From Larkinella terrae (GTDB lineage: Bacteria; Bacteroidota; Bacteroidia; Cytophagales; Spirosomataceae), in contig NZ_WJXZ01000012.1 in assembly GCF_009668025.1 (NCBI RefSeq), positions 434,001 through 498,000 on the forward strand: a DNA stretch of 64,000 nt, written 5' to 3'. The notes beneath the pieces were generated by a model that was given only the letters and a program-made list of their open reading frames with translations, had not been told where the DNA came from and did not search any database. Shown here piece after piece: positions 6,145 to 34,185 of this stretch (within the stretch, counting starts at the first letter, position 1; the number at the start of each line of letters is the position of its first letter). The position numbers were made by a program, and so were the translations under genes.

Positions 6145-6157
6145 TATGATTCTGATG

Positions 6158-6250
6158 ATTTAAAATGATGACGATGATTCTGATGAAATGATTTGGGTGA
6201 CGTTTCAGAAAAATCATCAGCGTCACTGAATCACCGTCATCATTTTAAAT
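6158..6250. repeat. Nested inverted repeat between kinase-like gene and helicase gene
   Basis: The 23-nt arm 6158-6180 matches the reverse complement of 6228-6250 with a single mismatch. Inside it, GTGACG (6197-6202) pairs with CGTCAC (6221-6226). The element could act as a terminator for the gene ending at 6266. It has no long T tract and is built of ATGATGA-like low-complexity units. Confidence 0.7.
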
Positions 6251-6265
6251 CACACTCATCATCGT

Positions 6266-14571: not shown

Positions 14572-15858
14572 CTACTTTTTCCGGACCGGTTTTTGGGCTG
14601 AATAGCCCTTTTTGCCGTGGAACCAGTGGGTGGCCTGGCCCGTCAGCCAGAGATAATAGTCGGAATCCAGCCCGGTTTCGATGCCCACAAATTTGCCCTC
14701 GCCGTTCAACGGTAATTCATTTTCCCGCTTCGTCTTGAAAATGGCCGTTCCTTCGTCCACTTCGTCGAACATCGCCACGTACAGACTTTGTGCCCCGGCC
14801 TGTTGGGCTCCTGCGACCTGTTGCCACAGGAAATCGCCTTTCAAACGCGGAATCTGGTTGTAGACATTCGGACTGTTTTTCAGATTTCCCCAACTGAATC
14901 CCGGAAAAACCAGCGGCACGTAATCGACTTGATTAGTTTTGCACCACTCGATATCGTCCGCCAGCGTGTTTCCCGAAACCGTTGCGTACGAGTTGGGATT
15001 GTACCGTCCGACGGCCCAGGGCATGATGATGTCGGCACTTTTGATGAGCGGATGCAGCAGTTCCGACGGTTCGGTATCCTTCGTCATCGTTCGCCAGTAA
15101 TACGGCACGCCCAGCAAAACCGCCGTTTTCTTCGTCGGCCCTTTCACTTTCTCCATCAGTCCCTGAATATCGGCCACGGTATACCGGCGGTTGTCGTTAA
15201 ACCCGACTCCCCAGATCGCCAGCAGCGGTTTTCCGTTGTGCCGGAGATAGGTCGGATTTTCCTTGTTGTTGAACAGGGCAAAAAGCTGTTGCAACTCATT
15301 CCAGTCGTTCGCCAGCAAATCCATATCCGCCGAGGTCGAACCGCTCAGATCGTACATGATGGAGATGGCCCGTTTGTGCTTTTTAGCCGCTTTCAGCGCG
15401 TTAGCCAGCACTTTGTTGAAATGCCGCTTCCCTTTTTCGGATTTGATTTCGGACAAAAACCGCTGCATAAACACCCCGTCGATGCCGTAGTCTTTCATCC
15501 ATTTGAAATGCAGATCGACGCTGGTTTCGTCGTACGGGCTATACACCGATGCGGTTTCGCCATTGGCGTATTTGAAGGCCGTCGGGTAAGTGGTCGGGTA
15601 GTCATTTACATCGGGCCAGAAGTCGATCGACGCAAAACCGGGTTCGAACTTTCCGCGTTTCTGGTAATGGTGCCAGCCCCGGTCGGACGCGTCGCCCTGA
15701 GCGGCAAACCAGCCCTGGTATCCGGCCATAACCAGCCCCTTGTAGCTGGTGTAGAGACAGCCGGTTTCGTCGTAGTTGACTTCAGTAGTCTGACTTTTAA
15801 CGTCAAAACCGGAAAGTAAGGCCAATAAAATCCCGGCCAGGAAAATGAGCTTTTTCAT
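14572..15858 (-). CDS. Secreted GH71/GH99-like glycoside hydrolase domain protein
   Basis: 428 residues with a signal peptide (1-22, LAGILLALLSGFDVKSQ). The body has the TIM-barrel layout of GH71/GH99-like proteins: LVMAGYQGWF near the start, then HFKWMKDYGIDGVFMQRF, ISIMYDLSG, KPLLAIWGVGF, ADIIMPWAVGRY, YVPLVFPGFSWGN and LYVAMFDEVDEGTA (candidate acid residues D and E). Such proteins are often annotated as xylosidase or arabinosidase without biochemical proof. It is probably the last gene of a three-gene reverse-strand group with the cytochrome protein and GH95. Confidence 0.75.
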   Translation of the reverse strand: MKKLIFLAGILLALLSGFDVKSQTTEVNYDETGCLYTSYKGLVMAGYQGWFAAQGDASDRGWHHYQKRGKFEPGFASIDFWPDVNDYPTTYPTAFKYANGETASVYSPYDETSVDLHFKWMKDYGIDGVFMQRFLSEIKSEKGKRHFNKVLANALKAAKKHKRAISIMYDLSGSTSADMDLLANDWNELQQLFALFNNKENPTYLRHNGKPLLAIWGVGFNDNRRYTVADIQGLMEKVKGPTKKTAVLLGVPYYWRTMTKDTEPSELLHPLIKSADIIMPWAVGRYNPNSYATVSGNTLADDIEWCKTNQVDYVPLVFPGFSWGNLKNSPNVYNQIPRLKGDFLWQQVAGAQQAGAQSLYVAMFDEVDEGTAIFKTKRENELPLNGEGKFVGIETGLDSDYYLWLTGQATHWFHGKKGYSAQKPVRKK

Positions 15859-15951: not shown

Positions 15952-18192
15952 TTATTTCTGATCCGGTTTTATCAGTTCGTCCAGCGTCCAGGCTTTGGTG
16001 CGTCCGGCGGTTTGCTCCCGAACGGCTTTGACATCGGCGGGTCGTACGCCAACGCCCTGATTGGAGCCAAATTCGTAGCGGATGTAACTCAGCACCGAAG
16101 CCAGCCACTCGTCGTCGTTGGCGCCCATCGCGGGCATTACGTCCGGGTACGTTTGGCCGTCGATCGGGCCGGACAGACCGTGCAGCAAAATGCGGATCGC
16201 GATGTCTTTGTTGCGGTTCCGAACGCGTTTCGAATCCACCAGCGGAGGGGCGGCTTTGCTTTCCAGTCCTTTGCCATCCGGCCCGTGGCAGGTCGTACAC
16301 AGCGACTTATAAATCGTCGAACCGTTCAGCACCAGCTTCCGATCCACTTCGTCCAGACTGCCCAGCCGCCGTCCAAACTTCTTAACGTCTTCGTTTTTGT
16401 CCAGACTTCGCTGCGCGCGGGCCACCATTTCATTGCCGGGCGCCAGCGTAATGATTTCCTGCGCCAACACCTTCGCTTTTGGATCAGGACTATACGAAAG
16501 TGAAAGAACCAATTGCGTGCGGACGTCGAAACTCGGATCGGTTTTCAAATCACCCAGCCGCGCCAGCAGAGTCGCGTCGTTTTGTTTCAGATACGGTTCA
16601 CTGAGCCGAACGGCGGTTCGGCGGGCTTGGGCGTCTTCGTCCGTCAGGACTTTCAAAATCACGGTTTTATCCAACGCGTTCAGCCCTTCCAGCGTCCACA
16701 AGGCGTGAATACGGCCCAGCGCCGAAGCCGGTTTTTGGCCCGTTGCAATGGCCTTCAGGGTTGGAACAACGGTTTGGTCGTTGCGGACGATCAGTTCTTT
16801 CTGGGCGTTATCGCGCCACCAGCCGTTCGCATGATCCAGATAGGCGACCAGTTTGGCGCTGGTTTCGTCAAGCATCTGCGGTTTTGGGCCGGGTTTCAGT
16901 CCGTCGTGAACCAGTCGGTAAATCCGGCCGTGCTGGATGTTTTTGTCCAGCCCCAGGCGCGTAATCTGGGGCCGCAGGTAGCTATCCGGCCGCGTCCAGT
17001 TGCCTTCCTGAATGATACCCCGGTGCATGTCGACCAGATACAGACAACCGTCCGGACCGGTATACATGTTGACGACCCGGAAATTCATGTCGGTCGACGC
17101 GATGAATTCTTCTTTCTGGTAGGCATTTTCGAGCGTCGTTTTACCGGCCACATTGCCGACTTTTGCCCGGCGGATCAGTCTCCCAACGGGTTCAGCAATC
17201 AGCAAATCGCCTGACAGATCTGACGGCAGCCGGTCGCCCCGAAAAACCACCTGCCCGCAACTGGCCGTGAAATGATTCAGGGTGGTATCGGCGGGCCGGA
17301 TGCGCTGCACACCACCCTGCACATCCGGCGTTTTGATGATTGGCCAGACGGCGTTGAATTCCTGGCTGTACTGATCGCTGAATTCCATCCGCCCGTAAAT
17401 GGGATTGATCTGGAAACCCAGGGCTGGAACTTCGCCCCCCGCCGACGAGAAATACAGCCGTCCGTAATTGTCGTGCGTCAACCCCCACTGACCACCGGAG
17501 CCGCTGGGAATCGAATCGGCTTTCAAAACGCCCCCCGTATACCGAAACCGCACCGGATCGACGGTGACGTAAATCCAGTTGTCGAGGTTCCAGTCCAGAC
17601 CGCTGCGCTGGTGTTCCAGGTTGCCGGGGGCCTTTTTGCCCGGATTAAAAACCGGTTTTTTCTGATCAGCCACGCCGTCGCCGTTCGTGTCCTTGTAGCT
17701 GTAAATGTCGTAGGTATCGGTTTCGTTGACCAGCAACTCGTGCCCGACGCACAGCAACATGCGGGGTAACAGCAGTTTATCGATAAAAACGGAGCTTTTG
17801 TCCATTTTTCCATCGTTGTTGGTATCCTCCAGCAGCATCACCCGGCTCGTCGGATCATGTTCGTGGGAGCCGTCCACATCCTGCATGTAGGTATTCATTT
17901 CCACCACGTACATGCGGGCGTTTCCATCCCAGGCCACCGCCACCGGTTCATGAATCATCGGTTCGCTAGCCACCAGTTCAAGGTGATAGCCTTTCGGCAG
18001 CCGGAACGATTTCAGACTTTGTTCGGGCGTTAAATGAGCCGGAGACGGATTCTCGGTAAACGCCGGAACGGTTTGTTCGGATTGGCTCGTAGCGGTTTGG
18101 GCGGAATTCGGGGCATTTTGCCGGGCGACCTGACAGGTAACGGCCAGCAGCGACGCGGCCAGCACACTGCTGAGCCAGATTGTTTTTTTCAT
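15952..18192 (-). CDS. PVC-type membrane-bound dehydrogenase with C-terminal cytochrome c domain
   Basis: 746 residues from ATG 18192 (a start at 18207 is also open). A signal ends near TCQ (possible lipobox LAVTC). Residues about 45-400 form the beta-propeller PVC-type dehydrogenase domain (VAWDGNARMYVVEMNTY; NGDGVADQK). A HEAT-like helical region (about 440-600) follows, then a cytochrome c domain with a single haem motif CTTCH near residue 634 and distal Met in DVMPAMG. The family probably oxidises sugars and passes electrons to a c-type cytochrome; the substrate is not established. The GH95 gene lies 27 bp upstream, which suggests a shared carbohydrate role. Confidence 0.85.
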   Translation of the reverse strand: MKKTIWLSSVLAASLLAVTCQVARQNAPNSAQTATSQSEQTVPAFTENPSPAHLTPEQSLKSFRLPKGYHLELVASEPMIHEPVAVAWDGNARMYVVEMNTYMQDVDGSHEHDPTSRVMLLEDTNNDGKMDKSSVFIDKLLLPRMLLCVGHELLVNETDTYDIYSYKDTNGDGVADQKKPVFNPGKKAPGNLEHQRSGLDWNLDNWIYVTVDPVRFRYTGGVLKADSIPSGSGGQWGLTHDNYGRLYFSSAGGEVPALGFQINPIYGRMEFSDQYSQEFNAVWPIIKTPDVQGGVQRIRPADTTLNHFTASCGQVVFRGDRLPSDLSGDLLIAEPVGRLIRRAKVGNVAGKTTLENAYQKEEFIASTDMNFRVVNMYTGPDGCLYLVDMHRGIIQEGNWTRPDSYLRPQITRLGLDKNIQHGRIYRLVHDGLKPGPKPQMLDETSAKLVAYLDHANGWWRDNAQKELIVRNDQTVVPTLKAIATGQKPASALGRIHALWTLEGLNALDKTVILKVLTDEDAQARRTAVRLSEPYLKQNDATLLARLGDLKTDPSFDVRTQLVLSLSYSPDPKAKVLAQEIITLAPGNEMVARAQRSLDKNEDVKKFGRRLGSLDEVDRKLVLNGSTIYKSLCTTCHGPDGKGLESKAAPPLVDSKRVRNRNKDIAIRILLHGLSGPIDGQTYPDVMPAMGANDDEWLASVLSYIRYEFGSNQGVGVRPADVKAVREQTAGRTKAWTLDELIKPDQK

Positions 18193-18219
18193 GGGTTTAG
18201 AAGGCAAATGTCATGGCGA

Positions 18220-20694
18220 CTACAACGTCAATAGATAGCTTTTTCCGCTTTGCGTCGGGAAATCATACACGAAGGTTTCCTTCAGCGGCAGCGGGTTGAG
18301 TGTGGCCTGGGATGAAATCAAGGGTTTGGCGGTTTCTTCGGGCTGATAAAACGGATTCGGATTGGTACCCTGAGCGGTTTTCAACGCTACTCCGTTCGCT
18401 TTCAGCATGTTCGGAACCCGAATCCGGCAGTTGCCGCCCTGGTTGGATTTGATGGTCAGCTTCGCAATTTTGCCGTCTTTCCATTCCATCGACACCAATT
18501 CAAAACCGCCCCGCGCCCGCAAACCGCTGACTTTGCCGTCCTTCCAGACGTCGGGCAGGGCGGGCAGCAGGTGAACGGTTCCGTCGTGGCTTTGCAGCAG
18601 CATTTCGGCCACACCCGCCGTACAGCCAAAATTGCCGTCGATCTGGAACGGCGGATGCGCGTCGAACAGGTTGGTATACGTTCCGCCACCGCCTTTTTTG
18701 CCGGGTGCATTGACGGGCGAAAGCTGGTCGGTGATGAGTTTGTAGGCCCGGTTTCCGTCGAGCAGCCGCGCCCACCAGTTGACTTTCCAGCCCATCGACC
18801 AACCCGTCGAAACGTCGCCCCGGTGTTCAAGCGAGGTGCGGGCCGCGCTGAACAGCTCGGGCGTGCGGTAAGCCGACAGTTGCCCAGCTGGGTACAAACC
18901 GTACAGGTGCGAAATGTGGCGGTGTTGGTCTTTCGGGTTGTCGAGGTCTTCCAGCCATTCCTGCAACTGCCCGAACTGGCCGACCTGCATCGGTGCCAGC
19001 CGGGCGCGTTTTTCCTTCAGAATTTTGACAAAATCCGCATCCGTATTCAGGGCTTCGGCCGACCGGAGGGCTGCCGTGAAAATGTCGAAAACCAGTTGAT
19101 TGTCCATCGTATGTCCCGCACCGATCGTGACGTTCGGGCGGCTGGTGGGCGCGTTTTCGGGCGACATACTGGGGCAAACCACCAGCCAATGGTGCGTTGG
19201 TTCTTCCACCAGAAAATCGACAAAGAACTGAGCGGCCCCTTTGATGGCCGGATAGACCGATTTCAGGTACGTTTTGTCGCCGGAATACCGGTATTTTTCC
19301 CAGGCATGCTGGCTGAGCCAGGCCCCGCTCATCGGCCACATGGCATAGAAAACCGGATCGACCAGCCCGGTAATCCGCCACAAATCGGTGTTGTGGTGGG
19401 CCACCCAGCCCCCCGCGCCGTACATAGTTCTGGCGGTTTCCTGACCGGTTTGCGATAAATCCTTGACCATCTGAATCAGCGGCTCGTGCAGTTCAGTCAG
19501 GTTCGTGACCTCCGCGGGCCAGTAATTCATTTCGGTGTTGATGTTAATCGTATACTTACTGTCCCAGGGCGGACTCATTTGCTGATTCCAGATGCCCTGC
19601 AAGGTCGCAGGCTGCCCCCCTACGCCGTTACGCCCGGGTTGTGAGCAGGAAATCAGCAAATAACGCCCAAACTGGAAATACAGCGAAACCAGTTGCGGAT
19701 CGTTGCCGGAGGCAAACTGCCGGATTCGCTCGTCGGTGGGCAATTTGGCCGCATCGGTTGTACCCAGATCCAGTTTTACCCGATCAAAGTATTTTTGGTA
19801 AGCGGCCACGTGATCCTGCAAAACGGTTTTGAACGGGCGCGCCATCACCCGGTTTAACGGTTCTTCGGCTTTGGCTTGCGGATTGGCGGTCAGGGTTTTG
19901 TAATCCACAAAATTGGTCCCGATCGACACGTAGAGCGTCGCGGCATTCGCACCCGTTACCACCACCGACGTATCGTTGCGACTGAGCTGCCCCCCTTCCG
20001 GCAAAACCCGGACGTGGGCATTGAACCGCACCTGCCCTTTGACGCCTTCGTGGTCGCTGGTGATGCCGCTTAAAATCAGTTTGTTCGTCTCCTCGGTCTG
20101 GCGCTCGGTTTTCTGCGGACTGTTCAGAAAAGTCGTGAAGGTCAGTTTGCCCGGCTGGCTGGCCGTCAGTCGAACGGCGATGACCTGATCGGGTACGGAA
20201 GCGATCACCTGCCGGGTATATTTGACACCCGCAACCGTATAAGATGTGGTGGTAACGGCCCGCTCCAGATCCAGTTCGCGGTAATAGTCGGTGAAGGAGT
20301 CGTGACCGGCAAACGCCAGATTCAGGTTGCCGACGGGCTGGAACATCATGCCCTGCGCCTTTTTAGACTCAACTTTTTCGGCCGCCAGTTTCTGAGCTTC
20401 AGCATGTTTCCCTTCAAAAATCAGTTTCCGGATGGTCGGCAAAACCGCCAGCGCATCGGGATTGTCGTTGCGGTTTGGCCCGCCCGACCAGACCGAAGAT
20501 TCGTTCAGTTTGATTATTTCCTGTTCCGGATTTCCGTAAACCATCGCGCCCAACCGCCCGTTGCCGACGGGCAGGGCATCCGTCCAGATTTTGCCCGCGG
20601 GTTTGTTGTACCAAAGTTTTAGGGAAGCCGGTTGCTGTGCGTGGCCGATCAGGGTAAAAACGGACAGAAACAGGCTAACTAATAGAGTTTTCAT
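18220..20694 (-). CDS. Glycoside hydrolase family 95 (alpha-L-fucosidase type)
   Basis: 824 residues from ATG 20694; ATG 20703 is also possible, and the open frame runs to 20781. A signal peptide ([20 protein letters not shown]) is followed by the N-terminal beta domain [26 protein letters not shown]...NESSVWSGG and the (alpha/alpha)6 barrel with [26 protein letters not shown] and [10 protein letters not shown], all hallmark GH95 segments. GH95 enzymes remove alpha-1,2-L-fucose (some act on L-galactose) from plant or host glycans. It is the first gene of a reverse-strand group of three. No SusC/D pair lies directly beside it; the nearest is 4 kb away. Confidence 0.93.
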
Positions 20695-20804
20695 AGGGTT
20701 CATTAACCAAAATTTAGGAGTAGCTCGCGGGCGGTTTTTGTTTCGGAACACCTTTTCGCAAAACCGGTCAGGTACCGGCAATAAAAGGAACGGACTGTGT
20801 TTAC

Positions 20805-21239
20805 CTACCCCCTTTGCGGCTCATCTTTCACTCTTTCCAGACCATTTCGGATGCCCGATCGGATCATTTCTCCGTAACCGTCGTTCGGTAAATAGCCGAC
20901 AAAAGACTGTGCCAGTTGATAATGTTTCCGCGCCCGATCAAAATCCCGCAGATCCTCGTAGCCTTTTCCGCTGTTCAGGTAAAGAGACGGATAAGCAGCC
21001 CGGATGTCTTCCTGATTGTCGAGCAAGGCAAATTGGAGCGCGGTTTCGTCCCATTTTAACTTGTCGTTGACGCTCGGTTGCTGGCGGGCGACGTAATGGG
21101 CGGCAACAAACTTTTCAAAATGCGTGGTGGCTTCCGCCCAGGCTTGCTGAAAGAATGGACGCGCTTTTTCGGGCTCTCCTTCGTAGTTCATTCCCTGTGC
21201 GCAGAGTTGCACGATTTTGTTATTGGTATCGAAAGGCAT
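20805..21239 (-). CDS. Small TPR-like helical protein
   Basis: 144 residues, no signal peptide. Helix pairs with the TPR pattern of small and large residues ([17 protein letters not shown] about 21-37; [23 protein letters not shown] about 91-113) suggest two or three TPR-like units. Related Bacteroidota proteins are sometimes mislabelled as rRNA methyltransferases. No catalytic motif is seen. It stands alone between the GH95 gene and the decayed genes upstream. Confidence 0.7.
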
Positions 21240-21321
21240 TGGATAAACGCGTTTAGAATATACTCTCTTAACCAGTTCAAAAATAGTCGATTAGTTGAAG
21301 CCAAAACCCAAACCGGATTGA

Positions 21322-21522
21322 TTATTTGCCATTTCGGACCGGTTTATTCCAGAAAATAAACGTCCCGCGATCGGTTGACGAAACGATGTCGATGGCACCG
21401 TCTTTGTTCAGATCGACGGCCAGCACGTCCGAACCCGCACCGGAGCGGTTGTGAATCAGTTCGGGAACAAACTCCGATCCGCCGGGCGCTTTCGGGCTCC
21501 GAACCATCCGGTACCAGTACAA
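21322..21522 (-). pseudogene. Fragment of an FG-GAP/VCBS repeat protein (C-terminus)
   Basis: The reading frame gives about 66 residues with FVPELIHNRSGAGSDVLAV, DLNKDGAIDIV and GTFIFWNKP. DxNxDGxxD is the calcium-binding loop of FG-GAP repeats, and the ending resembles the last blade of exported VCBS-repeat proteins. There is no usable start: a stop codon (TAA) lies three codons upstream, and the rest of the gene is missing. It is best read as the surviving tail of a deleted gene. Confidence 0.7.
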
Positions 21523-21589
21523 AACCGGTTATCCCAGCGACGCGATTCACCTTTTGGGTTGAGGTACACCGTTGCGCGGGGCGGCCCGG

Positions 21590-21757
21590 TCAGAACTTGG
21601 ACTGATCGAGCCGCCCGCCGTATTCGGGCCAGTTTTGGGACGATTCTGCATCTGCTGGCTGGCGGTTTTTTTGAGCCAGCCGGTTACAACCCAGACTAAT
21701 CAGCAGCATGAGAAATACGTTCCGGCTCAACGGTTTGATCAGCCCAGAAATAGTCAT
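21590..21757 (-). pseudogene. Fragment of a PQQ-dependent dehydrogenase (N-terminus)
   Basis: From ATG 21757 a 55-residue frame encodes a lipoprotein-like signal (FLMLLISLGC, Cys24), a linker and NWPEYGGRLDQSKF, then stops at TGA (21590-21592). A W-P-x-Y-G-G-x5-S-K-(Y/F) segment is the start of the beta-propeller in PQQ-dependent glucose and alcohol dehydrogenases, which are about 700 residues long. Only the start survives. A 27-bp sequence almost identical to the one upstream of susC lies 76 bp before the ATG (21834-21860), so the lost gene probably shared its control. Confidence 0.72.
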
Positions 21758-21833
21758 GAAAAAAGGTTTAGGAATAGTTTTGACAAATCCGGTATTTTTC
21801 TGGATTTATCGGACACAAATTACGCGCGGTCCT

Positions 21834-21860
21834 CTTAAGAAAATCTTAATAAATGCTTAA
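21834..21860 (-). promoter_or_regulatory. TTAAG triple direct repeat (second copy of putative operator)
   Basis: Read on the reverse strand this is TTAAG-CATTTA-TTAAG-ATTTTC-TTAAG: three TTAAG units at an exact 11-bp pitch. It differs from the copy upstream of susC (24736-24762) at one base in 27. It lies 76 bp upstream of the ATG of the decayed PQQ-dehydrogenase fragment. Confidence 0.7.
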
Positions 21861-21913
21861 CGGAAGGGAAAACCGGGCGGGATTTACGCAAAAATCAGCC
21901 AGGAATTTCGGAT

Positions 21914-24505
21914 TCAGTCGATAATGGCCGAGAATGGCTGCTCGTATTCTTCGCCGTAGATGGCTTTGTAGTCGCGGGTAAATTTCTCGAACGTATTCTT
22001 GGCCAGCGTGTGTTTTCCCATGAGCGACAGTGCCTTGCATTTCAAAATAATGGCGTCTTCGTTGACGGGGTCGTAATAAAAAATGAAGTTGGTGAGCTCG
22101 ATCAGGAATTCCGGATCTTCGCTAATATCCAGTTTTTCAGCGTATTGCAGAAACGTATTGATAATTTTATTGGAACTGTCGGCCTTGAAATCGTCCAGCC
22201 AGTAGTATTCGGTATTCAGTAAAAAAGAACCTCGCTTGGTGATTTCGCCCAGCTCGAAAATGGTCTGTCTTGTCAGGGCGGCTTTGTGGTGGATAATCGC
22301 CATATAACGCTCGTAATCGACGTAAAGCTGGCTAAAGTCGAACTCCATTTTCCAATAACCGGACTCTTTGGAGAGCGAACAAAAACCGACTTTGTCCAGA
22401 ATATTACGCAGTTTGGCGATGTTAACCGAGCGGTTATTGCTCGCATCCCGCCCGGATTTGTCGGGCCAGAGAATTTCGTTGAGTTTTTCGGACGGAACCC
22501 CGCGCTGCTTGTCGATGCTGTTGAGCGCCAGCAGCAGAAAAAGCTCTTTCAGCAAGGGCGTAAACGACTTGGTAATGTCGCAGCCGTCGTGGTCGATCAC
22601 CTGAAAATTACCAAAAAAGAAGATGCTCGCTCTGGGCGTCGGTTCGGTCCCGGAAACGCTGTTGACCGGAAGTTTTTCCGCTGTTGGAAGTGGTTCCGGT
22701 TCCAGAAGTCGACCGGCCACTTCGGCTTTCTGCCGGGCTGAAGTCCGGCGTTTTTTCCGGAAATACAGAAAAAAAAGTACGCCCGCGCCAAAAACCGCCA
22801 GCCCGAATAAACCGTATTGAACGGACGATTGCTGCTCCGGAACGGCACGCGTTTCCAACGCATTCGGCGGAAACGAAATTGAATACAACTTGACATCCGT
22901 GGTGTTGTTCGGTTCATTGCGATACAGCACCACCGCAATCAGTTTCTGGCTAACCGGGCAATAATACAGGTCCGAATACGAGTGAATGTCGTGAAACTGG
23001 TACGGAATGGAATGCCCTACCAGCTCATACGTTGGTTCCGACAACGAACCACGAATCAGTTGGAGCTGCGATTTAAACTGTTGATTAGGAAATATAAGTC
23101 CGTAAAAAACCTTCGCTTTCGGATCGATAACGAGCGAATTGGCAAATGCAAAATCCGTTTTCGGAACGTTTAATTCGTAGATTTTCCGGAACGTATTGTC
23201 CTTCATCCGGTATTCCAGAAGGTCATAATTGCTCTTGGGATTGAGCATTTGTTCGCCCGTCAAACTGCCATAACCGCCGATCAGATAAGCAGTGTCAGCG
23301 GAGGAATTTGTACCCAAAGCGGCAAGATAACGGGGCGTATACACGTTACCAGTTATCGGAACGGTTTCCCACTGTTTCGTCGCAAACCGGTACCGGTGAA
23401 TGCGGTTTTTGTACGTCAACTGACCGTAGCCACCCAGGATATAAAGCGACGAGTCAGCTCCGATAAACTGGTTAGCATGCCAGAATTCCGTTACTTTAAC
23501 GTGGCTGGGTGTAATCGTTTCGGTAGCCCAGCCGCGCAAAACCGGGTCATAGACCGAAACCGCTTTCTGGTCCACAAAATAGTCGTACAGGCGGGCGGTA
23601 TACGGATTGTAAATGGCCTGACTGCCCAGAAAGAAGCTCTGGGGCGGGTTTTTGTGCAATTGCACTGAGCCCTGCCGCTTTCGAACGGCGTATTGATAGA
23701 GCGCATTCGAACCAATCACGTACACGGTTTCGGATTTCGGATCAAATGCAACGCTCGTCCGGCCTTTCAGCGACAACTGATCCGTTAGTTTCCATTCGTT
23801 GTGCAGCGATTTGATCCAGACCGGATTTTTAACGGAGGCAACCCGGCCGGAAATCTCATCTTTGGCCGTCGTTCCCCCGACTTCGTTCAGCGGCCAGTGG
23901 TAAACCGGTTCGTCGTTTTCAGACAGAATTATATCTTTTAGATTCATCGGCGGAACATCTTTCGATTTGAACCGGTTAAATTCGTTTCCGCCAAAAAATA
24001 GTTTAAAACAACCCCGTTCTTTAAAATGGATTTTATCCGTGATCACCAGCCTGTCATTGACATAAACGTGCATCGCCTGGCTCTTCAGATCCAGTTGCAG
24101 TTTAAAACGGTTCCAGTGGTGGTATAAATGCGCCGAGTCGATTTTAATCACGGATTGCGAAAACCGCTCGCCAATAATCATTTTAAAATTCAGCGATTTC
24201 TGGTCGTAAAGCAGATCGAGGTTCTGCGCATCGTCCTGAATCATCCGGAAAATGTAGCCAAAATACGTTTTGTAGCTGCTTGCCAGCGACACATCGAACG
24301 ACAGCTCGATATTCCCATCGAGACACAACGGTTTTTCGGGAGCCAGATCCAGCGAAGTCCGGTTGTCCTGCATTTCTTCCTGCCCCACAAACCGCAAACC
24401 GTAGGACTGAGCCCAAAGCGAAACCGTCGCCGACAGCAGGGCGATTAGGGTAAAAAAGAAGGAACGTCGTAAAAAGCTGGATAGTGATTGGTTAAAGCCC
24501 TCCAT
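21914..24505 (-). CDS. Trans-envelope one-component regulator: exported LamG/kelch-like sensor, membrane segment, cytoplasmic winged helix and BTAD-like tail
   Basis: 863 residues from ATG 24505 (the frame is open to 24565). The signal/anchor RSFFFTLIALLSATVSLWAQ comes first. A LamG-like beta domain (about 30-215; FDVSLASSYKTYFGYIFRM, LYHHWNRFKLQLD) precedes kelch-like repeats (about 250-530; LYILGGYGQLTYKNRIHRY and AYLIGGYGSLTGEQ). One membrane segment (about 557-577, GLFGLAVFGAGVLFFLYF then RKKRR) leads to a winged-helix domain (FFFGNFQVIDHDG...SEKLNEILWPDK...SVNIAKLRNIL) like OmpR/SARP proteins, then a helical BTAD-like tail. Positive residues after the segment place the DNA-binding part in the cytoplasm. 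There is no kinase or receiver domain. It is divergent from susC, so it is the likely regulator of the locus. Domain names are by pattern, not search. Confidence 0.78.
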   Translation of the reverse strand: MEGFNQSLSSFLRRSFFFTLIALLSATVSLWAQSYGLRFVGQEEMQDNRTSLDLAPEKPLCLDGNIELSFDVSLASSYKTYFGYIFRMIQDDAQNLDLLYDQKSLNFKMIIGERFSQSVIKIDSAHLYHHWNRFKLQLDLKSQAMHVYVNDRLVITDKIHFKERGCFKLFFGGNEFNRFKSKDVPPMNLKDIILSENDEPVYHWPLNEVGGTTAKDEISGRVASVKNPVWIKSLHNEWKLTDQLSLKGRTSVAFDPKSETVYVIGSNALYQYAVRKRQGSVQLHKNPPQSFFLGSQAIYNPYTARLYDYFVDQKAVSVYDPVLRGWATETITPSHVKVTEFWHANQFIGADSSLYILGGYGQLTYKNRIHRYRFATKQWETVPITGNVYTPRYLAALGTNSSADTAYLIGGYGSLTGEQMLNPKSNYDLLEYRMKDNTFRKIYELNVPKTDFAFANSLVIDPKAKVFYGLIFPNQQFKSQLQLIRGSLSEPTYELVGHSIPYQFHDIHSYSDLYYCPVSQKLIAVVLYRNEPNNTTDVKLYSISFPPNALETRAVPEQQSSVQYGLFGLAVFGAGVLFFLYFRKKRRTSARQKAEVAGRLLEPEPLPTAEKLPVNSVSGTEPTPRASIFFFGNFQVIDHDGCDITKSFTPLLKELFLLLALNSIDKQRGVPSEKLNEILWPDKSGRDASNNRSVNIAKLRNILDKVGFCSLSKESGYWKMEFDFSQLYVDYERYMAIIHHKAALTRQTIFELGEITKRGSFLLNTEYYWLDDFKADSSNKIINTFLQYAEKLDISEDPEFLIELTNFIFYYDPVNEDAIILKCKALSLMGKHTLAKNTFEKFTRDYKAIYGEEYEQPFSAIID

Positions 24506-24735
24506 TATTCTGGTTTTCCCGCCCGTCAGTCGGTATTGGTTGACTATTTGAGCGTCGCCTTTCATTGTACGGCTTACATTTTTCGGGACGAATGGCGTCT
24601 ACAATGCCCCTAAGTTATCCAATATTCGCCTTCTGTCAAAGCCGGTGGGTTGTTTCCGCAGTGCCGGAATGGACTGAATTAAATTAGAAAAAAACCATAA
24701 TAAAATTGATAAAACACAGACAGAAGCCCTCTGAA

Positions 24736-24762
24736 TTAAGCATTTATTAAGATTTTTTTAAG
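24736..24762 (+). promoter_or_regulatory. TTAAG triple direct repeat, putative operator upstream of susC
   Basis: TTAAG occurs at 24736, 24747 and 24758, an exact 11-bp pitch or one helical turn. Direct repeats with an 11-bp pitch are the known binding mode of OmpR/PhoB and SARP winged-helix activators. It sits in the 279-bp divergent region between regulator start 24505 and the susC frame. No clear TAnnTTTG promoter is seen beside it, which fits an activator-dependent promoter. Confidence 0.65.
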
Positions 24763-24811
24763 CCCTGACGGCGTTCTTCGCCCCATGTTTTATCCAATAA
24801 AATCAGGGTTT

Positions 24812-27800
24812 ATGCAAAAATTTTTATCGCATTTAAGGACCGTGCGCGTGCCATTTGCGCACCTCGCAAGGGTGTTCCTGCTGAGCGGATTGTCGGCAGC
24901 GCTGCCCGCACAGGCTCAGGAACTGCTGGCCCGCCGGGCGGAGCTGCCTGCGGTTTCGTCGGCCAGTCCGTCCCGGCTGCCAAACGCCGTGTCCGCTGGT
25001 AAAATACAGGATCGCACGATTACGGGGAAAGTTTCCGACGAAAAAGGAGCGGTTTTGCCGGGGGTGAACATCGTCATCAAGGGCACCACGCGCGGGACAA
25101 CCACCAACGAGAAAGGCGCTTATTCGCTCAGCATTCCGAACGGACCTACCACGCTGGTGTATTCGTTTGTCGGCTACATTTCCTACGAAGTCAGTGTCGA
25201 CAACCGCAGTGTGCTCGACGTAACGCTGAAAGAAGATGCGCAGGCGCTGGGCGAGGTCGTGGTGGTGGGCTACGGTACGCAACGCAAGGTGAACGTGACG
25301 GGTGCCATTGCAACCGTGGCCAGTAAAGAATTGGTCATCAACGCAAACAACGATGTTACCAACACACTGACCGGCCGGGCACCGGGCGTTCGCGTCGTTC
25401 AGTTGTCGAGCCAGCCCGGTAAATACGATTCCCAGATCGACATTCGCGGGTTTAGTTACACCGATCCGAACGACATCAACGGCAACCAGACCGGTGGTCC
25501 TCTGATCATCGTGGATGGCGTGCAGCGCGATAAGGCCGGTTTTGACCGACTGGACCCGAACGAGATTGAAAGCGTATCAATTCTGAAAGACGCAACGGCG
25601 GCCATATACGGCGTCAAAGCAGCCAATGGCGTCGTGCTGGTGACGACCAAGAAAGGCAGCCAGGGCAAGGTGCAGGTCAATTATACGACGCACGTCGGGC
25701 AACAGATTATAACCCGTTACCCGGCTTTGTCGAATGCATTTCAATACGCTACCCTGTACAATGAACAGCAGGTAAACAACAACATCAGCAACCGCGGTGA
25801 ATTGACGCCACCCAAGTATTCGGCCGCACAACTGGCGGATTTTCAGAGCGGTAAGGCCACAAGTACGGATTTTTTGAAGGCGGTTTTGCGGGATCGGGCG
25901 TCACAGCAGCAGCACAACCTGACCATTAACGGCGGAACGGACAAACTGCGGTATTTTGCTTCTGCCGGTTTTTTTGGGGAAGGCGGTTTGTTCAACTCCG
26001 ACATTTTGATGGGGAAAAAATACAACTTGCGGCTCAACGTCGACGCCGAACTGACCAAGGGTCTGACGATGGGCGCGAACATTGCGTTGATCAACTCCAT
26101 CAGCCGGGAGCCGAGCCAGGCCATGTGGGCGTTGCTGAAAAACACCTGGCAGTGGGACCCCACCGAACCGCTTTATTCCAACAACGACCCGGCTTATCTG
26201 CGGCAACCGCTCAGTGCGCTGAGTCACCCAATTGCCGATTTTTCGGAAGCCTACAGTGGTTATAATCGGAACGACGAAAAATTCCTGACGTCCACTTTTC
26301 AGTTGGGATACGTGGTGCCGTTTGTGAAAGGGCTGAGCGTCAAGGCGCAGTACGCGTACGACATCAACTACAATTTCCGGAAGCAGTTCACCAAAAAATA
26401 CAATCAGTACGAATACCTGTTCGACGCGGCCACGCAGACGTATTACCAGAAACCGTATCTGCACCTGGCTCCTTCCCGTATCAGCGAGGCATTTGGGCAG
26501 GGAAAACGGAACGATTTGCAGCTATCGTTCAATTACCAGAATAGCTTCGGAAAACACAATGTTGGCGCTCTGGGCCTGTATGAGCAGATCGACCGGGTGA
26601 ACAACAGCAACAATGCCTCCACGCAGTTTATCATCGATGCCGTTGACCAGCTCGCGGCCGGGAGCCGGAAAACCGATGCCATTGGCTCCGGCTACAGTTC
26701 AAGCGCCAACATGAGCTACGTGGGCCGCGTCAATTACGATTACGCCGGGAAGTATCTGGTGGAGGCCGGTTTTCGCTACGACGGTTCGTCGAGCTTTCCG
26801 AAAAACAGTCGCTGGGGCTTTTTCCCGTATTTCTCGGCGGGCTGGCGGCTTTCCGAGGAAGTCTTTGTTCGGAACAACCTGCCGTTCATTTCCAATCTGA
26901 AACTGCGCGGTTCCTACGGCGTGCTGGGCGACGACGGTATTGCAGGCGCGTCGTTCCAGTTCCTGACCGGTTATACCTACCCCAGCAGTGGCTATCAGTT
27001 TGGAACGAACTTCGTGGGTGGTCTGGGTTTCAAAAACTCGGCGAATCCGAACATTACCTGGTACACCTCGACAACCACCAATTTCGGGCTGGAAGGATCG
27101 CTCTGGAACAACCTGCTCACGTTCGAAGCCGATGTGTTCCGCCGGGATCGCGACGGTTTGCTGGGCGACCGGATTTCGACCATTCCGGCGACATACGGTG
27201 TCAACCTGCCGCAAGTTAATCTGAATCAGGACCGTACGCAGGGCTTTGAACTCGTTCTGGGCCACCGCAACAAATTTCGGGATATCAATTACTCGATTTC
27301 GGCCAACATGAGCTACGCCCGGACGCAATACCGTTACCGCGAAGAAACGCCCGCGAACAGCGACTATGATTACTGGCGAAACCGCAATGCCGGACGTTTC
27401 AACGACATTGTGTGGGGATACAAAACCGATGGTCAGTTTACGAGCCTCGAGGAAATCCGGAACTGGGCCATTATGGACGGTGCCGGAAACCGCACCATCC
27501 TGCCCGGCGACATTCGGTACGTGGACCTGAACGGCGACGGCATTATCAACAATCTCGACGAAACCGTGATCGGGCGCGGGCAGAGCAAACCGGCTATTTA
27601 TTTCGGTACGAACATTACCGTTTCGTGGAAAGGCTTCGACATTTCGATGCTGTTGCAGGGCGCGACCATGTATCAGGTGGCGTATCAGGATCAACTGTCA
27701 CGGCCCTTCTACTTCCAGACGGCCAACCCGATCAGCGCGTTCAACGATCGCTGGCACCGCTCGGACATCGTGGATGCCTCCAGCCAATGGATTCCGGGAA

Positions 27801-28087
27801 AATATCCGTCGACCGGCCAGCGGCAGAACTACAAGAGCAACGAGTTCTGGCGGTTCGATGCCACGTACATGCGCGTGAAAAGCCTGGAAGTGGGTTACAG
27901 TTTGCCGAAAACGCTGTTGAGCAAAGCCCACATCAAAGGATTACGCGTCTTCGGAAACGGTTACAACCTGTTTACGTTCTCGAAAGGACTCGATTTCGTG
28001 GACCCGGAATACACGGATGACCGGCTGTACAGTTACAACTACCCGCTTACGATGAACGTGAATTTGGGTCTCCAACTTTCTTTTTGA
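24812..28087 (+). CDS. SusC/RagA-family TonB-linked outer-membrane transporter
   Basis: 1091 residues from ATG 24812 (in-frame ATG at 24785 also possible). The signal peptide ends near LPAQAQ. A carboxypeptidase-regulatory-like domain follows (ITGKVSDEKGAVLPGVNIVIKGT...), then EVVVVGYGTQRK leading into the plug domain (IRGFSYTDP; GPLIIVDGVQRD; IESVSILKDATAAIYGVKAANGVVLVTTKKG). A beta barrel follows and ends in LGLQLSF with the aromatic C-terminus needed for outer-membrane insertion. SusC proteins import glycans or other large nutrients with SusD as lid. The substrate is unknown. The stop overlaps the open frame of the susD gene. Confidence 0.95.
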   Translation: MQKFLSHLRTVRVPFAHLARVFLLSGLSAALPAQAQELLARRAELPAVSSASPSRLPNAVSAGKIQDRTITGKVSDEKGAVLPGVNIVIKGTTRGTTTNEKGAYSLSIPNGPTTLVYSFVGYISYEVSVDNRSVLDVTLKEDAQALGEVVVVGYGTQRKVNVTGAIATVASKELVINANNDVTNTLTGRAPGVRVVQLSSQPGKYDSQIDIRGFSYTDPNDINGNQTGGPLIIVDGVQRDKAGFDRLDPNEIESVSILKDATAAIYGVKAANGVVLVTTKKGSQGKVQVNYTTHVGQQIITRYPALSNAFQYATLYNEQQVNNNISNRGELTPPKYSAAQLADFQSGKATSTDFLKAVLRDRASQQQHNLTINGGTDKLRYFASAGFFGEGGLFNSDILMGKKYNLRLNVDAELTKGLTMGANIALINSISREPSQAMWALLKNTWQWDPTEPLYSNNDPAYLRQPLSALSHPIADFSEAYSGYNRNDEKFLTSTFQLGYVVPFVKGLSVKAQYAYDINYNFRKQFTKKYNQYEYLFDAATQTYYQKPYLHLAPSRISEAFGQGKRNDLQLSFNYQNSFGKHNVGALGLYEQIDRVNNSNNASTQFIIDAVDQLAAGSRKTDAIGSGYSSSANMSYVGRVNYDYAGKYLVEAGFRYDGSSSFPKNSRWGFFPYFSAGWRLSEEVFVRNNLPFISNLKLRGSYGVLGDDGIAGASFQFLTGYTYPSSGYQFGTNFVGGLGFKNSANPNITWYTSTTTNFGLEGSLWNNLLTFEADVFRRDRDGLLGDRISTIPATYGVNLPQVNLNQDRTQGFELVLGHRNKFRDINYSISANMSYARTQYRYREETPANSDYDYWRNRNAGRFNDIVWGYKTDGQFTSLEEIRNWAIMDGAGNRTILPGDIRYVDLNGDGIINNLDETVIGRGQSKPAIYFGTNITVSWKGFDISMLLQGATMYQVAYQDQLSRPFYFQTANPISAFNDRWHRSDIVDASSQWIPGKYPSTGQRQNYKSNEFWRFDATYMRVKSLEVGYSLPKTLLSKAHIKGLRVFGNGYNLFTFSKGLDFVDPEYTDDRLYSYNYPLTMNVNLGLQLSF

Positions 28088-28095
28088 AATCCAAG

Positions 28096-29886
28096 ATGAA
28101 GAATATCAAAATCTACCTTGCCTTGCTGTTGATGGTCGGCTTGTCGGCCTGTAACGATAGTTTTCTGGATAAAAAACCGGTTGACCTGCTGACCGCCGAA
28201 CAGGTGTACAACAGTCCGGAGGCCGTGGAAGCCTATTTCGCTACTTTATACAAGGACCTGCCCATCGAGGATTTCAGCTTCTGTAACGGGCGGTTTGGCG
28301 AATTTCCGGCTAACGGCGACGGCTACACCGCCAACTGGACCTGGGAAACCACCAACTCGACCAATGCCGCCAACAACGACGAAAACTGGGGAAAACTGTA
28401 CCGGGCGGTTCGGAATGTGAACACGTTTATCAAGGAAATTGCGACGGTTGCGCTGCCCGAAGCGACCAAAAACGCGTACGTCGCCGAAGCCCGGTTTGTG
28501 CGGGCGTATTATTATCAGGAACTGGTCAAATACTGGGGCGGAGTGCCGATTTTGCTGGAACCCCAACAAGTCGACGACAGCAATACGCAATCCCTGAACC
28601 TGCCGCGCAGCAAAGAAGCCGAAGTCTGGGAGCTGGTAAAATCGGATCTGGATTTTGCCGTGGCCAACTTACCGGCAACGAGCGTGTACGGACGCGCCAA
28701 CAAGTACGTGGCCCTGGCGCTGCTTTCGCGTTCGATGCTCCACGCCGGGTCCATCGCCAAATTCGGAACGGTTCAGCTGGATGGTTTGGTGGGCGTCGAT
28801 CCGTCGAAGGCAACGCCTTATCTGCAAGCGGCTTACGATGCGTCAAAAGCCATCATCGATGGCGGAAAATATAGTCTTTTCAATAAGTATCCGACCGATA
28901 AGGCCCTGAATTTCCAGATGTTATTTTTTGAATTGCAGGGCAATTCGGAGGCTATTTTCTGCAAAGGCTGGGATTATGAATCGACCCGCCGGACGCATTC
29001 GCAGGATTTGATGGCCTTGCCGGACGCCATTCGCTCGCCAATCGGTTATGCCAACCGCCTGACGCCAACGCTGGATATGGTTGAGCGGTTTGACTACGTG
29101 GACGGCTCGCCCGGAACGCTGAACATCGGTACGCCCGGCGCTTACGTCCATTACGCCAATCCGCAGGATGTTTTCAAAAATAAAGACCCCCGGTTTTTTG
29201 GTTCGGTCATCTCGACGGGTACTTCATTTAAGGGCGTCGAGATTACCGGTCAGCGGGGAGTTATTCACAACGGCGTGAAATACAACGGCACAGCGCTCAA
29301 CCAGTATTTCGACATCGACAAGAAACAGATTGTAGCCAATCCGACCGCCAATTCGGTGCGAGCGACCGGCAATTCCAACAACGGCGCGAGTGTATTCTGG
29401 CTGAAAAAATGGCTCGATCCGGCCCGGCCCGCCAATTTATGCGTCGACTGGAGTTCGGAAACCGACTGGCTGGACATGCGCCTGGGCGAAGTGCTGCTCA
29501 ATTTTGCGGAGGCTTCGTTTGAATTGGGAAAACCGGCCGCCGAAGCCCTCGATGCCGTCAACCAACTTCGCACCCGTGCGGGCGTGGCCAAACTGACGAC
29601 CATCGACCGCACCAAAATCCGGAACGAACGGAACGTGGAGCTGGCCTTCGAAAACCGCACCTTCTGGGATTTACGGAGATGGCGAACTCTAACGACGGAA
29701 TTTAGCGGCTGGATTCCGAGCGGGCTCTTCATTTATTACGATGTAAACGCCAAAGATTACGTCTTCGAAAAAACGCCAAACGGCGGTGGTAAAACCTACC
29801 AGCTCAAAGACTATTACTTTCAGATTCCATCGTCTGAACGCAGCAAAGCTGGCTCATTATTAGGAAACGGAAACCCGGGTTATTAA
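28096..29886 (+). CDS. SusD/RagB-family nutrient-binding lipoprotein
   Basis: 596 residues from ATG 28096; an upstream TTG at 28084 overlaps the susC stop, but ATG gives the better signal. The lipobox LSAC is followed by NDSFLDKKPVDLLTAEQVYNSPEAVEAYFATLYKDL, the standard SusD start. TPR-like helices (RFVRAYYYQELVKYWGGVPIL) and the C-terminal RNERNVELAFENRTFWDLRRWR are both typical. It forms the surface lid of the SusC barrel. It begins 8 bp after susC ends and is cotranscribed. Confidence 0.95.
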   Translation: MKNIKIYLALLLMVGLSACNDSFLDKKPVDLLTAEQVYNSPEAVEAYFATLYKDLPIEDFSFCNGRFGEFPANGDGYTANWTWETTNSTNAANNDENWGKLYRAVRNVNTFIKEIATVALPEATKNAYVAEARFVRAYYYQELVKYWGGVPILLEPQQVDDSNTQSLNLPRSKEAEVWELVKSDLDFAVANLPATSVYGRANKYVALALLSRSMLHAGSIAKFGTVQLDGLVGVDPSKATPYLQAAYDASKAIIDGGKYSLFNKYPTDKALNFQMLFFELQGNSEAIFCKGWDYESTRRTHSQDLMALPDAIRSPIGYANRLTPTLDMVERFDYVDGSPGTLNIGTPGAYVHYANPQDVFKNKDPRFFGSVISTGTSFKGVEITGQRGVIHNGVKYNGTALNQYFDIDKKQIVANPTANSVRATGNSNNGASVFWLKKWLDPARPANLCVDWSSETDWLDMRLGEVLLNFAEASFELGKPAAEALDAVNQLRTRAGVAKLTTIDRTKIRNERNVELAFENRTFWDLRRWRTLTTEFSGWIPSGLFIYYDVNAKDYVFEKTPNGGGKTYQLKDYYFQIPSSERSKAGSLLGNGNPGY

Positions 29887-29899
29887 AAACCGCACACGT

Positions 29900-30634
29900 A
29901 TGAAATCGATTAAATCAGTAGTTTTCCTGCCCATTCTGCTGCTTGGTGTTATGAGCGGCTGTAAGAACTGGGATAATTTTGTGGCCCCGGATTCGGGTAT
30001 TTTCGGAAAAGTAACGGACGCCGAAAATGGCCAGCCGCTCGAGATCCGGCAACCCGGTGGCGGTTCGGTCCGGTTTATTCAGTGGGACAAGGCGAAATAC
30101 CCGAACCCCGGCACGACCGATATCGAACTGAAAGCGAACGGCGAATTTTCGGCCACGCAGTTTTTTGCCGGTACGTACAAGGCCCTCCCGCGCGACGGCG
30201 CTTTCCTCTACCAGCCCGCCGATTCGGTGACGGTGGACCTCAGCAACGGCAAGCGGGCTGAGTTGAATTTTAAAGTGACGCCTTTCTACCGGATTACGGC
30301 AAATGTTACCGACAGTACATTTACGTATACGATTACAAAACCGGCGGCCAATACGACGACCAAAATCTCCCAGATCATTTTTATGATCAACGACTACGAT
30401 AAGGTTGATGAAAGCATCAGCGCCAATACATCCGGCTATTTTATCAATCTCTGGCGGCAGGATATTGCAAGCAACGTAACCGATGCGAGCATTTTAGGAA
30501 CGCCCCGGACGTTTACGTTCAAATGGTCCGAGACGCACTTGCCCAAAGGCCAATATTATTTCCGGGTGGGCGTGCGCACAACCGCTGTCGCCAAATACAA
30601 TTACAGCCCGGTGGTGAAAGCTACGGTGCGCTAG
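29900..30634 (+). CDS. DUF3823-type surface lipoprotein
   Basis: 244 residues. The lipoprotein signal ends at GVMSGC (Cys21). The N-terminal half has an Ig/CNA-like repeat (GIFGKVTDAENGQPLEIRQPGGGSVRFIQW) and the second half a second beta domain (FRVGVRTTAVAKYNYSPVVKATVR). This arrangement is typical of DUF3823 proteins, which commonly follow SusD genes and may bind glycan at the cell surface. It starts 13 bp after the susD stop and is the last gene of the operon, ending before a terminator. Confidence 0.85.
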   Translation: MKSIKSVVFLPILLLGVMSGCKNWDNFVAPDSGIFGKVTDAENGQPLEIRQPGGGSVRFIQWDKAKYPNPGTTDIELKANGEFSATQFFAGTYKALPRDGAFLYQPADSVTVDLSNGKRAELNFKVTPFYRITANVTDSTFTYTITKPAANTTTKISQIIFMINDYDKVDESISANTSGYFINLWRQDIASNVTDASILGTPRTFTFKWSETHLPKGQYYFRVGVRTTAVAKYNYSPVVKATVR

Positions 30635-33246: not shown

Positions 33247-34185
33247 ATGGAAAACAATAAGCCAAAAGCAAACGGAGCGCTCGTCGCAGCCTTAGTTATT
33301 ATGACCATTCTGGCCGGTGTGTCCAGTTATCTGTTGTATGAACAGAAAGAAGTGGGTAAAAATCAGGAAGCAACGATCGCCACACGCGTCGAGGAATTAG
33401 CAACAACCCGAACCCGTCTGGATTCAATTTCAACGGCTTTGGATGCTAAAATTGCCGAAGTAAAAAAACTGGGTGGTGATATCAGTGATTTGGAGCGTGT
33501 GAAAGCAGATCTGGAGCGCGATAAAGCAAGTCTCCGGAAAGGTCAGCGTATTTCGATCGCCAAGTATGAAGCTAAAATCAAGCAATACGAAGCGTATCTG
33601 GTTGAAAAAGATACCCTGATTGCGCAATTGAAAAACGAAAATCAGGTGCTGGCAACCAACAACCAGACGTTGACGGATGCCAATACGACGCTGCAAACCG
33701 AAAAACAATCGTTGCAGGATTCCGTATCCAACATCTCGACGGTTAATAAGGACCTTTCCGATAAGGTTACCCGCGCTGCCGCGTTGAAAGCCCAGAACGT
33801 TCGCGTATTTGCGCTGAATGCAAAAGGCAAGCAACGTGACGCTACGGAAGATGAAGTAAAAGCAAAACGGGTTGACAAACTGAAAGTGGTTTATATGCTG
33901 CCCGAAAACCCGCTGACGAAGCAGGAAGAAAAAGAAGTCTACGTGCGGGTGCTTGATCCGTCGGGGGCCGTTGTTTCCGATATGGCGAATGGTTCAGGTA
34001 CCTTCCAGGTTAACGGCCAGGAGCAAATTTATACCGTGAAACAAACCGTGCCGTTTACGAACAACAACCAAAATGTTGAGTTGACGTACAACCGCGGTTC
34101 GGTTCCCTACAAAGCAGGTAAATATACCATCGAGTTTTATTCGGAAGGCTTCCGGATTGGCGAAGGCTCGTTTGCCATCAAGTAA
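33247..34185 (+). CDS. Membrane-anchored coiled-coil protein with C-terminal beta domain
   Basis: 312 residues, not assignable to a named family. One membrane segment (about 11-30, GALVAALVIMTILAGVSSYLLY) is followed by a long coiled coil (about 35-175; repeated ADLERDKASL, EKDTLIAQLKNENQ, ANTTLQTEKQSLQDS). A C-terminal beta-rich domain (about 180-312) has EVYVRVLDPSGAVVSDMANGSG and YKAGKYTIEFYSEGFRIGEGSFAIK. This single-pass layout puts the coiled coil in the periplasm and suggests a structural or sensing role. It is monocistronic, with a strong terminator 20 bp downstream. Confidence 0.78.
   Translation: MENNKPKANGALVAALVIMTILAGVSSYLLYEQKEVGKNQEATIATRVEELATTRTRLDSISTALDAKIAEVKKLGGDISDLERVKADLERDKASLRKGQRISIAKYEAKIKQYEAYLVEKDTLIAQLKNENQVLATNNQTLTDANTTLQTEKQSLQDSVSNISTVNKDLSDKVTRAAALKAQNVRVFALNAKGKQRDATEDEVKAKRVDKLKVVYMLPENPLTKQEEKEVYVRVLDPSGAVVSDMANGSGTFQVNGQEQIYTVKQTVPFTNNNQNVELTYNRGSVPYKAGKYTIEFYSEGFRIGEGSFAIK

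Follow-up and report, generated by a model that had tools for sequence, protein, structure and literature searches.

Locus and paired element

The stretch of DNA analysed here, called the window in the following, comprises 64,000 nucleotides of the Larkinella terrae genome (positions 434001-498000 of contig C4 in genome G000). In this window a gene for a membrane-spanning regulator is bracketed by two copies of a 27-bp element, a candidate operator in which TTAAG occurs three times at a pitch of 11 bp. One copy is located upstream of a susC-like gene, the other one on the opposite strand on the far side of the regulator gene (Table 1). Both had been reported in a preliminary description of the locus, and both are exact matches (0 mismatches) to TTAAG-N6-TTAAG-N6-TTAAG. 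They form a 27-nt inverted pair 2875 nt apart, identical in 26 of 27 positions and 96% complementary.

With up to three mismatches allowed, six matches were obtained in the window, five of them registers or strands of the two elements and one, at 32962, unrelated. None of 100 dinucleotide shuffles of the window reached six matches, the mean being 1.19. A check for random scattering of the element over the whole genome (7,846,626 bp in 22 contigs) yielded the two copies flanking the regulator as the only matches with at most one mismatch. The same two came out best in a genome search with a profile of the element plus its promoter box, built from 20 sites of the genera g1 (Larkinella) and g33, with E values of 2.5e-13 and 2.7e-11; the next-best match was partial and had an E value of 0.099, among the 150 of 3375 first-look candidates that were scored. 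A riboswitch or small RNA was considered as well and rejected, an Rfam scan of positions 20500-25500 giving one chance match with an E value of 0.42 and 26.3 bits as compared to a gathering threshold of 70.

The bracketed regulator

The regulator begins with an N-terminal signal or anchor helix (residues 24-48), followed by a predicted beta-sandwich (about 71-235), a Kelch propeller (253-569), a transmembrane helix (584-606), a linker, and a SARP domain (646-883). Both Kelch repeats and a propeller fold were found, and Pfam searches with the whole protein returned Kelch and propeller families and one weak match to DUF1583_N. The LamG label given to the protein in the preliminary description was not confirmed by Pfam, which found no LamG match in two members scanned whole; the region concerned is a predicted beta-sandwich barely tested by fold searches. 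In the structure model the cytoplasmic part adopts a SARP architecture with an OmpR-type winged helix and a subsequent BTAD domain, in line with the winged helix of OmpR or SARP type that had been suspected in this gene. A profile of the cytoplasmic domain matched no PDB sequence at E<=1, and no BTAD family member was detected within the L. terrae genome. Class-wide, a BTAD search matched 62 of 295 genomes, most of the matches listed covering only the TPR-like part. A trans-envelope SARP architecture is not named by Pfam or NCBIfam searches, nor was it found in the accessible parts of the open-access literature.

Conservation across regulator loci

Of the 222 genomes of the family (f1), 62 contain strong matches to the regulator, and 69 have any match at all, seven of these being weak and limited to the Kelch part. 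From these, 67 loci were fetched by homology of the regulator protein and not by motif, which together with the window makes 68 loci; all strong matches are covered except two fragments in G140. Exact matches to three TTAA at 11-bp pitch number 72, distributed over 58 of the 68 loci, and pitches of 7-10 and 12-16 bp yielded 0-3 sites each. Chance occurrence in A/T-rich DNA was rejected on the strength of this pitch test. By open reading frame (ORF) calls all 72 exact sites are intergenic, and in 70 cases an ORF begins no more than 400 bp away. Only operator 2 and the corresponding site of L. rosea lack such a start, a decayed gene lying between site and GH95 in both. The expectation that relatives carry the element before susC-like genes was borne out, as orthologous loci keep it at the 11-bp pitch. 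The consensus of the repeats over the 20 g1 and g33 sites is approximately TTAAG-NN-TTTA / TTAAG-NTTTTN / TTAAG. The regulator itself is 91% identical in L. rosea KCTC52004 and 76% in Larkinella sp. C7.

The letters between the repeats follow the regulator as well. Sites of the class TTAAGNNTTT[AG]TTAAG are found in 12 of 13 g1 and g33 genomes with the regulator and in none of the 32 without it (45 genomes), and an orthologue of susC (91-96% identical to that of the window), the regulator, and two sites occur in the same five of nine Larkinella genomes; both counts are non-independent, the genomes being related. An AT-rich UP-element or nucleoid-protein site lacking any dedicated regulator would agree with the A/T richness of the element, and is made hardly credible at all by the strict 11-bp phase, the presence of only two copies in the genome, and the co-distribution with the regulator.

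Four more distant genomes with homologues gave a mixed result, so the operator is not established beyond family f1. G577 has a single one-mismatch site near the regulator in one locus (L182) and none in the other (L181), and G521 (L183) and G428 (L184) have no site by the TTAA criterion. A 3.6-kb contig of G325 (L185, family f29) has exact TTAA triple repeats at three places (703, 914, and 3361) and an incomplete regulator homologue. The homologue in L184 (8390-10504, family f4) is shorter, with about 700 amino acids, and is followed by a sulfatase gene.

Putative promoter box at a fixed distance

For an alignment downstream of the repeats, 78 target-oriented sites were picked by hand: 69 of the 72 exact sites, one from L133, and eight one-mismatch sites upstream of susC. 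The three exact sites left out were overlapping or regulator-side registers, and the remaining one-mismatch rows were excluded too. A greedy cut at 75% identity left 39 non-redundant sites. A second conserved island, TAnTTn[GA], begins 12 bp after the third TTAA. This island played no part in the choice of sites, so that the information content of the box columns is not circular, as opposed to that of the TTAA columns. The box stands at this fixed offset in 25 of the 39 non-redundant sites (53 of all 78) and at any other offset in at most 3 of 39 (6 of 78). The box of operator 2, GTAATTTG, belongs to this pattern. A lack of any TAnnTTTG box had been claimed earlier; the claim holds for the strict form, present in 0 of 78 sites, and misses the degenerate, weak -7-like box at fixed spacing.

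For Flavobacterium psychrophilum a sigma-A box TAnnTTTG and its variant TAnnTTGY are described at -12 to -5 in part of the text of PMC9723704. If the box is placed at -12 to -5 as in that organism, the repeats extend from about -50 to -24, across the -33 region. In SARP promoters, as stated in a section of PMC10936776, the repeats are spaced by 11 or 22 bp and a distance of 8 bp separates the 3' repeat from the -10 element; judged from the sequence, the geometry of repeats and box resembles that of these promoters. A protein that represses the operons until its ligand binds would also profit from a site overlapping the core promoter. The weakness of the -7-like box, without a single strict TAnnTTTG, and the replacement of the -33 region by the site as in the activator geometry of SARP promoters make such a repressor site quite improbable.

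Candidate target genes and regulon

Table 1. Coordinates of the operators, boxes, and genes in the window.
Feature	Position	Strand	Remarks
Operator 1	24736..24762	+	TTAAGCATTTATTAAGATTTTTTTAAG; TTAAG three times, pitch 11 bp; lies before susC; kept in orthologous loci
Operator 2	21834..21860	-	TTAAGCATTTATTAAGATTTTCTTAAG; faces GH95 operon across gene remnants
Degenerate -7-like box of operator 1	24773-24780	+	GTTCTTCG; 10 bp past third repeat; T instead of the A of most sites
Degenerate -7-like box of operator 2	21823-21816	-	GTAATTTG; 10 bp past third repeat
Trans-envelope regulator, 883 aa	21914..24565	-	bracketed by both operators
SARP-type DNA-binding and BTAD-like domain, residues 646-883	21917..22630	-	structure model
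susC-like TonB-dependent transporter, target 1	24785..28087	+	Pfam CarbopepD_reg_2, Plug
susD-like lipoprotein, target 1 operon	28084..29886	+	PF07980, E 2.2e-45
DUF3823 protein, target 1 operon	29900..30634	+	PF12866/PF18003
GH95 (alpha-L-fucosidase family) gene, probable target 2	18220..20781	-	PF22124, E 3.6e-180
DUF7133-cytochrome c protein, target 2 operon	15952..18207	-	PF23500, E 5.3e-96
GH99-like hydrolase, target 2 operon	14572..15858	-	PF16317, E 0.0054, below cut-off; co-occurrence
Remnant of broken gene, 55 codons	21590..21757	-	follows operator 2 immediately; similarity to start of a PQQ-dehydrogenase not significant

The true start of susC is probably the ATG at 24812, as suggested by the relatives; the start of the longest ORF, 24785, would coincide with the predicted transcription start. 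On the other side of the regulator the GH95 operon is the most likely target of the minus site. This assignment is drawn from L067, L068, and L069, where the second site stands directly before the GH95 ORF at a distance of 35-193 bp.

Operator 2 is separated from a small TPR gene by remnants of one or two broken genes (21590-21757 and about 21350-21500, minus strand), a region that is decayed in L. rosea (L066) too. A decayed start of a PQQ-dehydrogenase had been proposed at this position; the ORF after the minus copy is indeed broken, and the match behind its proposed identity is non-significant (E 0.41). The GH99-like cluster of the g33 genome G183 (L240) includes a PQQ-dehydrogenase gene. 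The remnant may be a lost member of the regulon.

Targets of the 72 exact sites were tallied from the BLAST labels of ORFs that begin no more than 400 bp away. The largest groups are susC with 29 sites, six of them also having a larger GH99-like protein in divergent orientation, and GH92, divergent from the regulator, with 22. The others face an ECF sigma gene (7), the regulator with or without an unlabelled gene (5), GH95 (3), a GH99-like gene alone or with an unlabelled gene (2), GH29 together with the regulator (2), or nothing (2). Pfam searches on examples found GH92 (L079), ECF sigma (L071, L074), FecR and susC (L071), and alpha-L-fucosidase (L126). Judged by these families, the targets would have fucose- or mannose-type glycans as their common theme. 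In genus g33 a site before the ECF sigma gene is present in seven of seven loci (L070-L076), with FecR and then susC following in L071; an operator in this position would set one signalling route of polysaccharide utilization loci (PULs) above another. In the g33 genome G203 the GH99-like gene is provided with a site of its own at a distance of 21 kb from the regulator. The GH99-like cluster L240 of G183 also contains (5032-6393) an enolase-superfamily sugar-acid dehydratase resembling ManD, below the NCBIfam cut-off; it may point to an oxidative pathway, via sugar acids, for the sugar that is released.

The suggestion that the two sites define the regulon fits the L. terrae genome, where no third site was found.

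Operons unlinked from the regulator

A GH99-like gene is present in 49 of the 222 genomes, 46 of which also contain the regulator. In 13 genomes of genus g8 it lies on another contig than, or at least 78 kb away from, every regulator copy found. All 13 unlinked loci have susC, susD, and the GH99-like gene together, with an exact TTAA triple repeat upstream of susC and a box, TTACTTTG in 11 and TTTCTTTG in two of them, at the same 10-bp spacing. The three genomes with a GH99-like gene and no regulator (G082, G175, G210) have no exact site in the fetched stretches, and the pattern of repeats plus box is unmatched genome-wide in all three. TTAAG triple repeats of other spacer classes occur elsewhere in G082 and G175. 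This negative side is small, with three genomes whose fetched stretches contain no neighbouring susC. In four g33 genomes (G183, G185, G188, G198) the GH99-like stretches, 14-17 kb from the regulator, have no site of their own and continue long gene clusters.

The proposal that the element is the operator of the bracketed regulator is thus supported by the orthologous loci and by 13 of 13 unlinked operons. The unlinked operons also bear on a different explanation, in which the regulator is carried by a mobile or invertible segment and the two copies are its terminal inverted repeats. The copies are mutually inverted, 27 nt long with 96% match, and flank a single gene, all of which would suit such repeats. 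This explanation is already contradicted and very improbable: similarity ends at the motif, the spacers of the two copies differ in relatives, regulator and sites remain associated in g1 and g33, unlinked single copies are found before susC operons, the box stands at a fixed distance, and the sole long ORF filling the 2.9-kb segment is that of the regulator.

Specificity and points to be weighed

Several observations weigh against the element being the operator of an activator encoded by the bracketed gene. Ten of the 68 loci have no exact site; nine of these have only one-mismatch sites between ORFs, some of which may be chance matches, and one (L081) has neither an exact nor a one-mismatch site in the fetched locus. 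Genome G003 contains a regulator, 44% identical, and no site of the TTAAG class, its susC site reading TTAAT with one mismatch. In the window the box of operator 1, GTTCTTCG, departs from the consensus and misses the pattern, and operator 2 is more than 1 kb away from the living GH95 ORF, as is its counterpart in L066. Foldseek and VIA report a shared fold and not DNA recognition, and activation rather than repression is inferred from position. Finally, TTAA repeats at 11-bp pitch also stand next to another OmpR-type system and turn up where the regulator is missing from the genome. The signal thus belongs in part to a shared grammar, and a competing binder may exist.

This last point is the basis for assigning the element to another response regulator of the OmpR/PhoB type, as part of a two-component system, with the bracketed regulator not being the binder. 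In L134 (10014-10050) four TTAAG in tandem (11-bp pitch, different spacers) lie beside a genuine pair of histidine kinase and OmpR response regulator; they adjoin homologues of the window gene 33247-34185. Tandem TTAAG of this class also occur in L135 (9948, before a DUF7133/cytochrome c gene) and L136 (9550), and the three appear to be a different operator class with the same grammar. The pattern of repeats plus box is found in 105 of 222 genomes, as compared to 21 for a reversed control, which exceeds the 62 genomes with the regulator. Eight of the 68 loci (L078-L083 and L086 of g8, and L076) contain histidine-kinase-like and OmpR-regulator-like ORFs, possibly a second input or a chance neighbour. 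Against another OmpR regulator stand the 60 loci that have no such pair within the fetched stretch, the specific spacer class that follows the bracketed regulator (12/13 versus 0/32 genomes), and the fold of the bracketed regulator, which itself fits such an operator. Moreover, second regulator copies in g8 pair with a spacer class of their own, TCCAAA/TCCCCG-like, in the susC operator (six sites, L113-L119). In L113-L119 a larger protein with a 34-35% GH99-like match is encoded divergently to susC. Taken together, a separate response regulator is considered unlikely. As far as can be read from the sites, specificity must lie in the spacer letters and not in the TTAA repeats.

Proposed mechanism

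It is considered very probable from the sequence comparisons that the 27-bp element serves as operator for a SARP of the trans-envelope, one-component type, and that this protein activates a glycan regulon of GH95, GH92, and GH99-like enzymes. This is concluded from the occurrence of only two sites with at most one mismatch in 7.85 Mb, both flanking the regulator, together with the pitch test, the box at fixed offset, the behaviour of the unlinked operons, the co-occurrence of the spacer class, and the SARP fold. The Kelch propeller and the beta-sandwich would sense a glycan-derived ligand in the periplasm, and the single transmembrane helix would relay the signal to the cytoplasm. There, the C-terminal SARP-type winged helix and BTAD-like domain may bind the tandem TTAAG with one protomer per 11-bp turn. 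The repeats would stand in place of the -33 element, ending 10 bp before the weak -7-like box, and the geometry suggests that the bound SARP recruits sigma factor and RNA polymerase like AfsR. The regulon of L. terrae would then consist of two promoters, one for susC-susD-DUF3823 and, across the remnants, probably one for GH95-DUF7133-GH99-like. Relatives appear to use the same kind of operator before GH92, GH99-like genes, unlinked susCD operons, and an operon of ECF sigma, FecR, and susC.

Comparison with known systems

SARPs are best known as soluble activators of antibiotic clusters in actinobacteria. In operators of this family the repeats follow each other at 11 or 22 bp and the 3' one is about 8 bp away from -10, an arrangement seen here at the level of the nucleotide sequence. 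In AfsR of S. coelicolor and in EmbR the SARP domain is N-terminal in a soluble protein, a layout usual for the family rather than strictly required; here it is C-terminal behind a transmembrane helix and a periplasmic sensor. Further differences from these two proteins, with which the regulator shares 14-17% identity, are the three repeats, the Bacteroidota-type -7 box, and glycan instead of antibiotic genes. The transmembrane one-component activators ToxR, CadC, and TcpP have an N-terminal winged helix-turn-helix and a C-terminal sensor. In the present protein the order is reversed, with the sensor first and the winged helix and BTAD-like domain last, which sets it apart from ToxR-like regulators. 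In the Pho box bound by PhoB of the OmpR family, 11-bp direct repeats end about 10 bp before a -10-type element, and the repeats end at about the same distance from the box here; unlike PhoB, the regulator has no receiver domain that could be found, an additional BTAD-like domain, and a membrane tether.

With the hybrid two-component systems (HTCS) of Bacteroides PULs the regulator shares a periplasmic glycan sensor and a DNA-binding end in one polypeptide as well as adjoining susCD targets. It differs from them in that Pfam finds no kinase, receiver, or AraC domain, and in part of PMC3878776 the average distance between tandem HTCS sites is given as 21 bp. Local control of a susCD operon and direct-repeat operators are features in common with SusR-type regulators. 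Tandem SusR sites are 67 or 77 bp apart according to the same part of that paper (PMC3878776), in contrast to the 11-bp pitch of the present element, a comparison which refers to site spacing and not to protein homology.

Implications

Control of PULs is described in the accessible portion of PMC3878776 as being exerted by SusR, HTCS, or ECF sigma/anti-sigma systems. We regard it as likely that there is a further, undescribed route in Bacteroidota beside these, in which a membrane-spanning SARP relays a glycan signal from the periplasm straight to promoters where a triple 11-bp operator replaces the -33 element, spacer letters insulate paralogues, and the system has been rewired in g33 above ECF sigma, FecR, and susC. 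If true, a SARP that spans the membrane and has a defined operator, box, and glycan regulon would add a mechanism of PUL control. It would also pose the question of how a membrane-tethered activator reaches unlinked promoters, and it would make the regulon readable off the genome in family f1.

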